Part shown: positions 13,841 to 17,691 of the stretch, one piece after another
How the letters are laid out: every line of letters starts with the position of its first letter
How positions within the stretch are numbered: the first letter of the stretch is position 1
DNA from: Solobacterium sp.
Lineage (GTDB): Bacteria > Bacillota_I > Bacilli_A > Erysipelotrichales > Erysipelotrichaceae
DNA: 38,694 bases
Assembly (NCBI GenBank): GCA_017536885.1
Contig: JAFWCM010000231.1
Span: 1 to 38,694, forward strand
Reading direction: 5' to 3'
Position numbers and translations under genes: made by a program
Notes under the pieces: generated by a model
Database searches by the model: none
What the model was told of the DNA's origin: nothing
The model's input: only the letters and a program-made list of their open reading frames with translations

Positions 13841-13852
13841 AAGACAGAACAG

Positions 13853-13910
13853 AAAAAAGACCCTTCAGGAAACAGAACAGTCACAGTTCTTTCCCTGCCG
13901 GGTCTTTTTT
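13853..13910 (+). terminator. Terminator after the NAGPA gene pair (possibly bidirectional)
   Basis: Perfect 11-bp arms AAAAAAGACCC (13853-13863) and GGGTCTTTTTT (13900-13910). The A and T runs on both sides mean it could stop transcription from either strand. The converging minus-strand remnant ends just beyond it. Confidence 0.8.
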
Positions 13911-13926
13911 CCCGGGAGAATTGCGC

Positions 13927-14510
13927 TCAGCGAAGCTCGCAGAAATTGAACTGAAAGCGGTCCTGATCCCGCAGTGTACAGGCAGTGATGGTGCACCGCA
14001 GTACTGCAGGGCAGCATCGCTTTCCATTGCCGCCGAGCGAAGATAATATCCGGGTTCTTTTCGGATCAGCTGCCATACCGACCGGTTCCCTTCGCCGATC
14101 TGGCAGGTAAGAACGGGATTGTTTTTCGGATCCAGGGTCAGATATCTTCCCCCCTCTTCCCTCAGCGTTACGGTGCCCTCTCCCGCATCCTGAACCGTGA
14201 AGATCAGCGTATTGGCGGGAAGCGGTCCGGTCAGATCATTGCCGGAGGCGGGACAGTCTTCCGGTTTCAGCGCATTGACAGTTTTGGGATCTTCGGCCAC
14301 AGCGCAGCCCTGGGCTTCGTGATAGAGAACATAGCGATGTCCATCCTGCGGACTGTCTGACAACACGGCGGCGGAATTTTCCGGCGGTGTCTCTGAAGCA
14401 GGGTTTCTGGAACAGACAAGAGACCAGTGAAAATTCACGACGTCCGGCGTGATCGAACCAAAGCGTTCTGAGGTATCTCTCCTGGCCATAATCCTCACTT
14501 GCTTCGTCAA
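13927..14510 (-). pseudogene. Frameshifted remnant of a secreted beta-rich (ricin/5'-nucleotidase C-terminal-like) domain
   Basis: The minus strand encodes about 150 residues resembling the C-terminal domain attached to secreted metallophosphatases and similar enzymes: HRYVLYHEAQGCAVAE, GGRYLTLDPKNNP and PGYYLRSAAMESDAALQYC. After the ALQYC segment the frame breaks. Continuing in the +2 frame gives ITACTLRDQDRFQFNFCELR and a TGA at 13927-13929, which looks like the natural C-terminal strand. No catalytic domain, signal peptide or convincing start lies upstream; the open frame simply begins after the cupin stop codon. I read this as a decayed gene fragment with one indel near 13985-14000. An alternative is a genuine short protein with an unusual C-terminus. 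Confidence 0.5.
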
Positions 14511-15173
14511 TTATTCCAGCGTCAACAACAAGGCCATCCGGAAACGCTTAATGGCCCTGACAGAATGAACTCCCGCTTTGGCAAAGCGGAAATTCTCTCC
14601 GGCTTTGATGGGATGATCCTTTCCCTCATAACCGATCACGCCTTCGCCGTCCAGCACAAAGATCAGTGCCTCGCCGGGTGCGGCATGCTCGGAAAGGCTG
14701 GTTCCTTCATCGAAGGCCATCACGACGAACTTCATTTTGTCGTTATGCACGACGTCCATATTGACAATCTTTCCCTCCACATAGGGGACGAGCTCCGCCA
14801 GTTTGAAAACTTCACCTGTTTTGATTGAATCGTTCATTGTATCATTCCTCCTGATCGAAATTTCTGTATAGACAGCACCTTCCGCTGTCTTCATACCTAT
14901 TGGTATATCTGTCGGTGTAAGAACTGCATCCCCTTCGACAAGCCGCCTCTGATAATCATCTGTACCATACACATCCAGACTGCCGTCGGCCGCAATGATA
15001 AGTCTGTTGTACGGATAGATTTCCGCGCTGATGTCCGTGTCTTTTGCCAGAGAGAAATATACGATGTGATTCCCACCGCTATGGACTTCCCTGGAAATCG
15101 TGCACCCGGTAATAGGCTGATTATCCTTAGCTATGGTAAAAACCTCTCCGGCCTTTTCTTTCATGGCAGTCAC
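14511..15173 (-). CDS. Double cupin domain protein
   Basis: 220 residues with two cupin beta-barrels. The first spans about 20-110 (NHIVYFSLAKDTDIS, NRLIIAADGSLDVYG, GDAVLTPTDIPIG). The second spans about 118-218 (MKFVVMAFDEGTSLSEHAAPGEAL, VLDGEGVIGYEGKDHPIKAG, RFAKAGVHSVRA). The second barrel keeps a His-x10-Glu-type metal-ligand pattern; the first appears to lack the metal histidines. The substrate is unknown. The start is either GTG at 15173, overlapping the upstream stop as GTGA, or ATG at 15164. It is the third gene of an operon with a ferredoxin and a DUF2249 protein, facing a Crp/Fnr regulator, which suggests a role in redox or nitrosative stress (inference). Confidence 0.8.
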   Translation of the reverse strand: MTAMKEKAGEVFTIAKDNQPITGCTISREVHSGGNHIVYFSLAKDTDISAEIYPYNRLIIAADGSLDVYGTDDYQRRLVEGDAVLTPTDIPIGMKTAEGAVYTEISIRRNDTMNDSIKTGEVFKLAELVPYVEGKIVNMDVVHNDKMKFVVMAFDEGTSLSEHAAPGEALIFVLDGEGVIGYEGKDHPIKAGENFRFAKAGVHSVRAIKRFRMALLLTLE

Positions 15174-15853
15174 ACTTTCACGTCCGGATTTTTTTCGCCG
15201 TATTTCTCCTTGAGCATCTCGCAGATCTCATCGCGCTTCCTGCCCTGCTTTTCCATATTCTTGATGGTCTTGTAGGCCGCAAAGAGCGCGGATGGGCCGA
15301 TCTCGGAGCTGAAGCAGCCGATGCCCTGATTCCATGCCAGCAGCTCGAACACATCGTCCAGTGCTGCGCTGTCCAGACCGTAAATATAGGCTTTTACCAG
15401 CTCCCTCGTTGCCTGACGCATACGACCCGCACCAACGGCATTGGCAAGCGAGAGCAGAAGGCGCATCTCATACGGGAGATACCGGTTTTCATCGTTCCAT
15501 GTCAGATCCCAGAAGTTCACGGCGATGTTTCCGAGTTTTTCATCAATCAGCGGCATGTTGGTCAGCGCCGCCGGACGCATCGGTATGTCCTTTTCTTCCC
15601 GTTTTTCTTCTGCGCGGTAGAAATATGCATGGAATTCCGCCTCACCCTTCTGCTCGGTGTAGTGCTCGAAGCCGAGGCCTTCCATCACCTCATAGAGGGG
15701 GATGGGATCGAAGGACTGGACAATCTCCAGTCCGTTTCCAGCAGGAAGCTGCAGCGCCTGACGCCTGATCCCCTGAAAGAAGTTCCCCTGAATTCCTCTG
15801 ACATCAATCTGCTTGAAAGCAGCCGTTTTATCTTTCCATTCCTTCCAGTTCAT
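15170..15853 (-). CDS. DUF2249 protein with a C-terminal carboxymuconolactone decarboxylase-like region
   Basis: 227 residues. The N-terminal part (about 8-75; FKQIDVRGIQGNFFQGI, LEIVQSFDPIPLYEVMEGLGF) fits DUF2249, a TusA-like fold often found with iron-sulfur and nitric-oxide response proteins. The C-terminal part (about 115-210; RYLPYEMRLLLSLANAVG, LVKAYIYGLDSAALDDVFELLAW) resembles the AhpD/CMD fold, but the CxxC redox pair is absent (GRMRQAT at that place). The start at 15853 has GGAG 8 nt upstream and lies 13 nt after the ferredoxin stop; longer open reading upstream overlaps the ferredoxin gene. Function is not assigned. Confidence 0.75.
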   Translation of the reverse strand: MNWKEWKDKTAAFKQIDVRGIQGNFFQGIRRQALQLPAGNGLEIVQSFDPIPLYEVMEGLGFEHYTEQKGEAEFHAYFYRAEEKREEKDIPMRPAALTNMPLIDEKLGNIAVNFWDLTWNDENRYLPYEMRLLLSLANAVGAGRMRQATRELVKAYIYGLDSAALDDVFELLAWNQGIGCFSSEIGPSALFAAYKTIKNMEKQGRKRDEICEMLKEKYGEKNPDVKV

Positions 15854-15866
15854 TGTGATATCTCCA

Positions 15867-16580
15867 TTATTCCAGAATCCTGCCATCCCTTGAGATCGTA
15901 ACGACCTGCCACGGGATGAACCTGCCGCTCGCCTGAAGTGCCGTCTCTGCCGCTCTCTGCAGTCCTCCGCAGCAAGGCACCTCCATCCGCACGATGGCCA
16001 CGCTTTTGATATCGTTGTCACGGATGATCGCCGTCAGCTTCTCGGTGTAATCCACCGCATCCAGCTTAGGACAGCCGATGATCGTGATCCTGCCTTTCAT
16101 GAAATCCTCATGCATGTTGGCATATGCATAGGCGGTGCAGTCTGCCGCGATCAGCAGTTTTGCTCCGTCGAAGAAAGGAGCCTGCGTCGGAACCAATTTG
16201 ATCTGACATGGCCACTGGCCGAGTCGGGAAACCGGCTTGCTCGTCTGTGCAGGAGCACCATCTGTATTCTGCTCAAACTGCATCATTCGGGAACCGGGAC
16301 AACCGCCCTCATTGTGTGCATGCTTCATCTCATCCATCTTCTTTTTCTCCTTTGCTTCCTGTACCGCTTTCTCATCATATTCGGGAGCCTCGCGCTCCTC
16401 AAAGGTAATAGCTCCCATCGGGCAGCCCGGCAGGCAGTCGCCAAATCCATCACAGAAGTTCTCGCGTACCAGCCTGGCCTTACCGTCTATGATATCGATT
16501 GCCCCTTCATGGCATGCGCTGGCACAGAGTCCGCAGCCGCTGCACTTTTCTTCATCGATGTGAATAATCTTTCTGATCAT
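15867..16580 (-). CDS. 4Fe-4S ferredoxin-type protein (Crp/Fnr- and Hcp-associated family)
   Basis: 237 residues with two iron-sulfur motifs at the N-terminus: CSGCGLCASACHEGAI (about 13-28) and the atypical CDGFGDCLPGCPMGAI (about 43-58). Further conserved Cys segments follow: GGCPGSRMM, WPCQIKLVP, AADCTAYAY, IIGCPKLDA and VPCCGGL. This layout is known from ferredoxin-like proteins encoded beside hybrid cluster protein (Hcp) genes in anaerobes. It likely handles electrons or binds a ligand in the cytoplasm; the reaction is unknown. It has a strong GGAGGG ribosome site and a Fnr-like operator upstream. It is the first gene of the ferredoxin-DUF2249-cupin operon. Confidence 0.88.
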   Translation of the reverse strand: MIRKIIHIDEEKCSGCGLCASACHEGAIDIIDGKARLVRENFCDGFGDCLPGCPMGAITFEEREAPEYDEKAVQEAKEKKKMDEMKHAHNEGGCPGSRMMQFEQNTDGAPAQTSKPVSRLGQWPCQIKLVPTQAPFFDGAKLLIAADCTAYAYANMHEDFMKGRITIIGCPKLDAVDYTEKLTAIIRDNDIKSVAIVRMEVPCCGGLQRAAETALQASGRFIPWQVVTISRDGRILE

Positions 16581-16610
16581 TGCGTTTCCCTCCTCACTTG
16601 TTCTGGTGTC

Positions 16611-16674
16611 ATTTTAAACTGGCCTTTTCAAAAATTCTGTATCTCTGGATACACATATGAAATGTTTTTATAAT
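16611..16674. promoter_or_regulatory. Divergent promoter with Fnr/Crp-type operator
   Basis: A perfect palindrome TGTATC-TCTG-GATACA lies at 16638-16653, with the same 4-nt spacing as FNR sites. Plus strand: -10 TATAAT at 16669-16674 for the regulator gene, and its -35 position (TGGATA, 16646-16651, 17-nt spacer) lies inside the palindrome. Minus strand: -10 TAAAAT at 16611-16616. Its start point would be near 16604, putting the palindrome centre about 41.5 bp upstream, the classic class II activation position. Confidence 0.65.
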
Positions 16675-16706
16675 AGAGGCATCAGCAGATCGAAAGGAGA
16701 ATTGCT

Positions 16707-17381
16707 ATGGACTATTCCGTGCTTGAGAAAAGCATTCTGTTTTCCGGAGTGCCTGCTGCGGAGCTGAGAGCCGCATTGGAAGAGACGCCTCACCACATAC
16801 AGTGCTGCGATAAGGGAGAGGTCCTGTTTCATCTGATGGAGCCTGCCACCCGGATTGGTATCCTGCTGGAGGGACGTGTCGAAGTACAGAAGTCCTTCCC
16901 GAACGGAAGTCAGGTCAATGTATCCATCCGTGTGCCGGGTGAAATGATCGGGCCTGCCGCAGTGTTTTCAAAGAGTCAGAGGTATCCCTGCGACATTGTT
17001 TCACTGGAACCGGTCACTGTGATGATGCTCCGCAAAGATGACCTTCTGAGGCTCATGCAGAAAAACGTGCGGATACTGGAAAATTTCACCACAGAGATAG
17101 CTTCTGCGGCCTATATGCTGCAGCAGCGTCTGGAGCTCTATTCATATAGCGGAATCGCACAAAAGGCCGCATTCTGGCTGCTGATGCAGTCAAGGCAGAC
17201 AGGTAAAAGCAAAATACACATTCCCGGATCTGTTTCCAGATGGGCAATGCTGCTGAATGTCTCCCGCCCCTCGCTTCACAGGGAATTAAAGCGGTTGGAT
17301 GATCAGTCAATTATTTCCTATAAGCCGCCGATCATTGACATTCTGAACCAGGATGAATTGCAGGATGTACTCAGCCGTTAG
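16707..17381 (+). CDS. Crp/Fnr family transcriptional regulator
   Basis: 224 residues. An N-terminal cyclic-nucleotide-binding-type barrel (about 20-115; GEVLFHLMEPATRIGILLEG, VSIRVPGEMIGPAAVF) is followed by a long dimer helix and a C-terminal winged helix (about 150-215). The latter's recognition region reads WAMLLNVSRPSLHRELKRL. Two adjacent Cys (HHIQCC, residues 33-34) and one near 93 are present, but no FNR-type four-Cys cluster. It could therefore sense through heme or another ligand, as HcpR-type regulators do (inference). It has an AAAGGAG ribosome site. It is divergent from the ferredoxin operon, with a matching palindrome in the shared promoter, so that operon and its own gene are the probable targets. 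Confidence 0.9.
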   Translation: MDYSVLEKSILFSGVPAAELRAALEETPHHIQCCDKGEVLFHLMEPATRIGILLEGRVEVQKSFPNGSQVNVSIRVPGEMIGPAAVFSKSQRYPCDIVSLEPVTVMMLRKDDLLRLMQKNVRILENFTTEIASAAYMLQQRLELYSYSGIAQKAAFWLLMQSRQTGKSKIHIPGSVSRWAMLLNVSRPSLHRELKRLDDQSIISYKPPIIDILNQDELQDVLSR

Positions 17382-17691
17382 AAAAAAGCGCCTCTGAACG
17401 ATTTGCCCGGAAGTACTTTCTGCAGAAGACATATAAAAAACAGCTGAGAATCATCCCGGCCGGCAAAAGCATTTGAATCAGTCAAAGGATCCGGCATTTC
17501 AGCAGTCCTGTTTTCATCAGATGGCTGTCTCCCTGATTTCAGTGTATGACAGAACGGGGATTTCTGCATGCAGGTATTCAGGGCTCTTTGAAAAGGAAAA
17601 TCCTGACCGCACATGATGCGTCATGCATTCATGTCCTGCCAGGATTTCTTCACCTCATTGATGTCTGTAAAACGCGGGTTGTCTGCCCCGG
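17382..17691. other. Intergenic region, no convincing gene
   Basis: About 310 nt without a supported gene. A short minus-strand open frame has no ribosome site or recognisable product. The only structure seen is an 8-bp inverted repeat (AAATCCTG/CAGGATTT, 17598-17605 and 17640-17647). On the minus strand it is followed by TTTTCCTTTTC and may terminate the lipoprotein operon, although its loop is long. Confidence 0.5.

Follow-up and report, generated by a model that had tools for sequence, protein, structure and literature searches.

A probable operator with class II spacing between a predicted HcpR-like regulator gene and a ferredoxin-like operon in Solobacterium sp.

Genes and promoter elements at the locus

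The window, by which we mean the whole 38,694-nucleotide stretch of Solobacterium sp. DNA analysed here, contains a regulator gene of the Crp/Fnr superfamily and, divergent from it, a predicted operon of three genes (Table 1). The intergenic region, bounded by the start of the minus-strand ferredoxin-like gene at 16580 and the start of the plus-strand regulator gene at 16707, carries a palindrome. The initial annotation described it as a perfect TGTATC-TCTG-GATACA sequence with FNR-type 4-nt spacing whose half-site differs from TTGAT and TGTGA. The palindrome is present as described and conserved in orthologous loci, and the half-site is borne out by the window and the orthologue sites alike. 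The interval singled out in that annotation, 16611-16674, runs exactly from one -10 box through the other.

Table 1. Features of the regulator and operon region, with positions in the window
Feature	Position	Strand	Remark
Cupin protein, operon gene 3	14511-15173	minus	Pfam PF07883
DUF2249 protein, operon gene 2	15170-15853	minus	Pfam PF10006
Ferredoxin-like protein, FrdX-like, operon gene 1	15867-16580	minus	4Fe-4S Pfam domains, two-cluster
Predicted operon transcription start	about 16604	minus	inferred from -10 box; conserved GTTCTG around it
-10 box TAAAAT, divergent operon promoter	16611-16616	minus	first base 29.5 bp from operator centre
Probable operator TGTATCTCTGGATACA (TGTATC-TCTG-GATACA)	16638-16653, centre 16645.5	intergenic	exact in 69/75 orthologue loci
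-35-like TGGATA, regulator promoter	16646-16651	plus	inside operator, 17 bp from its -10
-10 box TATAAT, regulator promoter	16669-16674	plus	23.5 bp from operator centre
Crp/Fnr-superfamily regulator, HcpR2-like, 224 aa	16707-17381	plus	Pfam cNMP_binding (PF00027) and HTH_Crp_2 (PF13545)
Recognition helix core codons R187-P-S-L-H191-R192	17265-17282	plus	helix state tracks half-site

We examined the gene partners of the regulator in 75 orthologue loci by tblastn, using proteins from the window and its relatives. Ferredoxin lies near the regulator in 55 loci, DUF2249 in 28 and cupin in 19, followed by an FprA flavodiiron protein in 12, DUF438/hemerythrin in 7 and Hcp in 5. Seven of the 75 loci gave none of these six in the same search. 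The predicted partners are of one functional kind.

The block containing the regulator and operon (window 13841-17690) looks like an island that was gained by transfer, or lost in relatives. Close homologues of the genes flanking it on either side occur in the genus. We fetched four relatives (L266-L269); each has homologues of the flanking genes and lacks homologues of the operon and regulator. A search of 36 genus genomes, own genome included, returned a close regulator match in three. The two orthologues from other genomes of the genus, G015 (71 percent identity) and G023 (44 percent), both have the exact palindrome upstream of the regulator. Most orthologues come from records titled Lachnospiraceae, Clostridiales, Clostridia or Ruminococcaceae.

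Conservation of the palindrome and promoter spacing

The 75 orthologue loci were fetched from titled genome records with two sensor/dimer-region peptide patterns, not by operator or helix, and they include relatives of one another. An exact TGTATC-N4-GATACA lies within 400 bp upstream of the regulator start in 69 of them, and L104 has the site with one mismatch. The site was missed in the other five: in L097 the upstream DNA is just 36 bp long, and L105, L107, L108 and L109 are themselves partial matches to the regulator search. The recurrence of the exact site upstream of the regulator upholds the earlier assignment of the operator to a Crp/Fnr-type regulator. At the level of whole genomes, 36 of 37 with the regulator carry the exact site, and they hold 54 sites in total against 5 for the reversed pattern. 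The palindrome is very probably a real, conserved operator. Genome G060 has three full-length copies of the regulator (L035, L062 and L140), each with an exact operator.

We reduced 71 promoter regions (the window, the 69 exact loci and L104) to 56 distinct ones by removing 15 rows that were at least 80 percent alike or cut short, so that the remainder are pairwise less than 80 percent identical. In an ungapped alignment of these 56 promoters, all 12 half-site positions are invariant save one base in one row. The 4-nt spacer (window 16644-16647) also appears constrained, with T or C as its first base and A or G as its last in 56 of 56 rows.

The alignment places an operon -10 box, TATA(A/C)T on the minus strand, at one position. 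Scored at a threshold of 5/6 matches, it starts 29.5 bp from the operator centre in 46 of the 56 promoters, 28.5 bp in one and 30.5 bp in two. One of our counts broke ties towards 29.5; the figure of 46 was obtained without such tie-breaking. Across 200 shuffles, at most 5 matches to a -10 box fell at any position. Since the first base of the window's -10 box is 29.5 bp from the centre, transcription is predicted to start at about 16604, with the operator at -41.5. The best operon-side -35 reaches 2/6 matches in 32 and 3/6 in 14 of the 49 promoters scored, and the predicted operon promoters are without a usable -35 element. A site near -41.5 and the lack of a good -35 characterise class II CRP/FNR-dependent promoters, and both are found here in the sequence geometry relative to the predicted start. 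The class II placement originally put forward for the ferredoxin operon thus holds across distinct promoters, and class II activation of the operon is well supported as a prediction. To the left of the centre, at a distance of 45.5-40.5 bp (about 16600-16605 in the window), the plus-strand sequence GTTCTG is conserved. It covers the predicted operon start and the bases just after it, outside any promoter element named here.

The regulator side is arranged more loosely. Its -10 box starts 28.5 bp from the centre in 23 of the 56 promoters, 27.5 bp in 15, 26.5 bp in 4 and 25.5 bp in 6, and the distance of 23.5 bp is seen in the window alone. The best -35 on this side has 4/6 matches in 17 and 3/6 in 26 of 51 scored promoters, and the commonest, TACACA, lies in and beside the right arm of the operator. 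The proposed overlap of the operator with the -35 of the regulator gene is seen in the window, where TGGATA falls within the palindrome. In L048, L079, L083 and L089 a distance of 185 to 341 bp separates the operator from the regulator start and the -10, where scored, is near the operator, which points to a long regulator leader in these loci. The leaders of L037 and L038 have a hairpin-like insert (GACATCCTC...GAGGATG) between the -10 and the start.

We also searched for further sites. The window's own 3.41 Mb genome contains a single exact copy of the palindrome and five further sites with one mismatch, compared with three matches for a reversed control pattern. None of the five has a 5/6-match -10 at 29.5 bp. 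With up to two mismatches there are 92 sites versus 103 for the control, hence no excess of near-matches in this genome; the genome-wide search for TGTATC-N4-GATACA suggested in the initial annotation turned up no wider regulon there. We also inspected 18 stretches around sites in regulator-bearing genomes. L140, L154, L156 and L157 each hold a regulator and its operator. L152 has an exact site upstream of an Hcp gene unlinked to the regulator, with a -10 at 29.5 bp, and L141 has a site between two genes with no -10 of 5/6. Most other inspected sites lie within reading frames. As the inspected sites are mostly regulator-linked or within reading frames, the regulon appears to be small and local.

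Regulator family and recognition helices

E. coli FNR recognizes a TTGAT half-site, carries a [4Fe-4S] cysteine cluster, binds palindromes with 4-nt spacing and acts from class II positions at -41.5. The locus in the window is like FNR in spacing and in the class II placement, and unlike it in half-site and cysteine cluster. The only cysteines of the regulator are C33, C34 and C95, and across 73 clade members these are present in 41, 3 and 72 proteins, respectively. We dropped the FNR reading on the basis of these cysteines and the half-site. A CRP reading was also dropped; the regulator has P188 at the position of CRP E181, and its site has N4 spacing rather than TGTGA half-sites with 6-nt spacing.

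An AlphaFold2 model of the regulator built from 28 sequences has a mean pLDDT of 92.5, and its top Foldseek match is HcpR from P. gingivalis (9day_A; TM 0.83, 22 percent identity). The HcpR2 branch comprises nitrosative-stress regulators; Rodionov et al. 2005 (PMC1274295) describe it with the motif GTAACnnnnGTTAC (GTAAC-N4-GTTAC) and Pro at position 181. The window clade resembles this branch in belonging to the CRP/FNR superfamily, keeping R180, having Pro at 181 in most members, using an N4-spaced palindrome and lacking the FNR cysteines. The likeness extends to the targets, which are hcp, ferredoxin (frdX) and hemerythrin-like genes, and to the position of the regulator beside its target. 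Control of hcp or an frdX-like ferredoxin is indicated at our locus by gene position and the operator, with the frdX-like gene divergent in the window. C. difficile HcpR, according to PMC12915319, activates hcp and the ferredoxin-like frdX in response to NO, and thus shares the frdX-type target. The same clade differs from the HcpR2 branch, as described in PMC1274295, in its half-site (GTATC, not GTAAC) and in the core of its recognition helix (xSLH/Y, not PSLS). The site in the window, GTATCnnnnGATAC, accordingly does not match GTAACnnnnGTTAC. Hcp, which we searched for in the window's own genome, was not found there, a further difference from the HcpR2 branch. With relatives, partners and best fold match all pointing the same way, the regulator clade appears to sit beside the HcpR2 branch rather than to represent Fnr.

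We asked how helix states and half-sites are distributed among relatives found by two class-wide searches. Loci with a PSLS core (n = 57) comprise 42 with GTAAC, 3 with a mixed site and 12 with none; GTATC does not occur among them. Conversely, 73 of 76 loci with xSLH or PSLY cores have GTATC, 3 have no site, and GTAAC is absent. The GTAAC-type loci (n = 47) have the same ferredoxin beside the regulator in 8 cases and Hcp in 5, and for 18 TGTAAC sites a -10 at 29.5 bp was counted 14 times. A quick helix-masked tree of 89 of the 155 rows (motif-bearing, thinned at 78 percent identity), drawn from the window clade and GTAAC-motif relatives alone without other CRP/FNR families as an outgroup, needs two motif changes, one for the large clade with the window and one for L250/L258. 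H191 (CRP position 184) was rejected as sole determinant of GTATC, because relatives bearing Ser there (L230, L232, L233, L250 and L258) also have GTATC when 181, 182 or 183 differ.

A simple helix rule derived from these PSLS and xSLH/Y counts and their relatives was tried on 60 unseen loci. PSLS/PALS loci, for which GTAAC was predicted (n = 21), have 8 exact GTAAC sites, 4 mixed sites, 9 without either and no GTATC. PSMS loci, for which GTATC was predicted (n = 19), have 4 GTATC sites, 1 mixed site and 14 with neither, 3 of these carrying GTAGC. The rule failed for TSLS, where GTATC was predicted and found in 0 of 12 loci; all 12 have GTTAC. Given the failure for TSLS and the partial failure for PSMS, the five-state table below is fitted rather than predicted, and the Gln/Ser difference at 179 was added after the simple rule had failed.

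The full set contains 230 loci, 218 of them with a readable helix (L006 and L052, L007 and L103, and L099 and L154 are the same loci counted twice). An exact GTxyC palindrome lies within 400 bp in 160 of the 218 and is lacking in 58; any such palindrome was found in 1 of 218 shuffled upstream regions. There are five recurring half-sites (GTAAC, GTATC, GTAGC, GTTAC and GTTGC). Each is restricted to particular helix states that no other half-site shares; PSMS is the exception, its loci comprising 6 with GTATC, 3 with GTAGC and 13 with neither. In the fitted table, PSLS-like helices go with xy = AA; xSLH/Y, TTLS, PTLS and Ser179-TSLS with AT; PSMS with AT or AG; TSMC with AG; Gln179-TSLS with TA; and SALS with TG. 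Outliers are GTTCC, which accompanies GTAAC in 3 PSLS loci, and GTCCC, seen in 1 xSLH locus.

In searchable open-access text we did not find the string GTATC-N4-GATAC, and there GTAACnnnnGTTAC occurs only in PMC1274295. GTATC may be a new specificity variant of HcpR-like regulators, possibly with an earlier notice in closed journals, RegPrecise logos or figures (the C. difficile and C. thermocellum motifs are given in a figure).

Predicted regulation and alternative readings

We propose, with a probability of roughly 0.8, that the HcpR2-like regulator binds the palindrome and activates the operon from -41.5 upon a signal, and that in the window it most likely limits its own synthesis. Nitric oxide, or another nitrosative or redox signal related to it, would most likely switch on the sensor domain, and the regulator dimer would then bind TGTATC-N4-GATACA. 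The bound dimer would activate the frdX-like/DUF2249/cupin operon from the class II position, in place of the missing -35, while covering the -35 of the regulator gene in the window. Sequence comparison shows the operator, its link to the regulator, the class II spacing, the operon side without a -35 and the gene partners; we infer binding itself, the activating role, the kind of signal and whether autoregulation is positive or negative. Points against this proposal are the own genome, which is without Hcp and without an excess of near-matches, the lysine K62, and the near-class-II spacing on the regulator side in most orthologues.

The autorepression proposed in the initial annotation fared unevenly. 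It fits the window, with a -35 inside the operator, and is plausible there; as a simple rule for the clade it has most orthologues speaking against it, in which the regulator -10 at 25.5-28.5 bp is near the class II distance and leaves room for positive autoregulation. The bound regulator could thus activate both promoters from a single operator that lies at a class II position for either of them. The commonest regulator-side distances (+28.5 in 23 promoters and +27.5 in 15, at 5/6 or better) would put the operator near -40.5 or -39.5, as this account would have it. We nevertheless consider it unlikely, since the regulator side is spread from 25.5 to 28.5 bp where the operon side is rigid at 29.5, and its -35 candidates match better than those of the operon. 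In the window the regulator side, with a distance of 23.5 bp and a 4/6 -35 at 17 bp, is not of class II form. Rigid operon spacing without a -35, together with a looser regulator side whose -35 lies under the operator, fits activation of the operon and, by inference, repression of the regulator.

Overlap of the operator with the -35 region of both promoters would also suit a pure repressor that controls both genes and is released by a signal. We regard this as improbable. A repressor needs no rigidity of the kind seen on the operon side, where the lack of a usable -35 and the exact distance in 46 of 56 promoters are as expected for activation, and C. difficile HcpR is described as an activator in PMC12915319. 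The palindrome might finally be a chance match, the site of another regulator or a transcription terminator. At least one exact copy occurs by chance in each of 11 of 37 other genus genomes (33 of the 37 were searched for the regulator and gave no close orthologue), so an exact copy alone is unremarkable genome-wide. What goes beyond chance is the conservation of site and spacing beside the regulator (exact in 69/75 loci; operon -10 at 29.5 bp in 46/56), in promoter regions that are not near-identical copies and with a half-site that changes together with the recognition helix. An accidental origin or an unrelated role is, on these predicted features, almost certainly wrong.

For the inducing signal, NO or other redox stress is our best guess from the partners. 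In P. gingivalis HcpR, Met68 has been put forward as a putative heme ligand (PMC12750200). The aligned residue is K62 in the window and K in 72 of 73 clade members, so NO sensing via that ligand is unsupported for the clade. In GTAAC relatives this position is mostly T, K, H, A or S. M44 is kept in 70 and C95 in 72 of the 73 clade members, and M44, K62 and C95 are not kept in GTAAC relatives. This pattern hints at a changed signal.

A broader proposal, which we advance tentatively and would put at slightly under even odds, is that HcpR-type regulators form a series in which GTxyC-N4-G(y'x')AC is constant and xy is interchangeable, with five values set by CRP positions 179 and 181-184. In the window clade the address and the sensor pocket (M44, K62 and C95) would both have changed; the clade may read a signal other than heme-NO, and would have kept HcpR-type targets. 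At the locus itself, the analysis provides an operator, a promoter geometry and a regulon that can be tested for an uncharacterised redox or nitrosative-stress regulator of many rumen and gut Firmicutes MAGs. The natural helix/half-site pairs allow DNA-recognition rules of the CRP/FNR superfamily to be tested by swapping a few residues. They also bear on the 2005 proposal (PMC1274295) that residue 181 is a main specificity position. According to that paper, C. difficile HcpR has Ser there and a motif that differs from GTAAC, and P. gingivalis HcpR has Gln. Within the window clade, the half-site is the same whether residue 181 is Pro, Ser or Thr.
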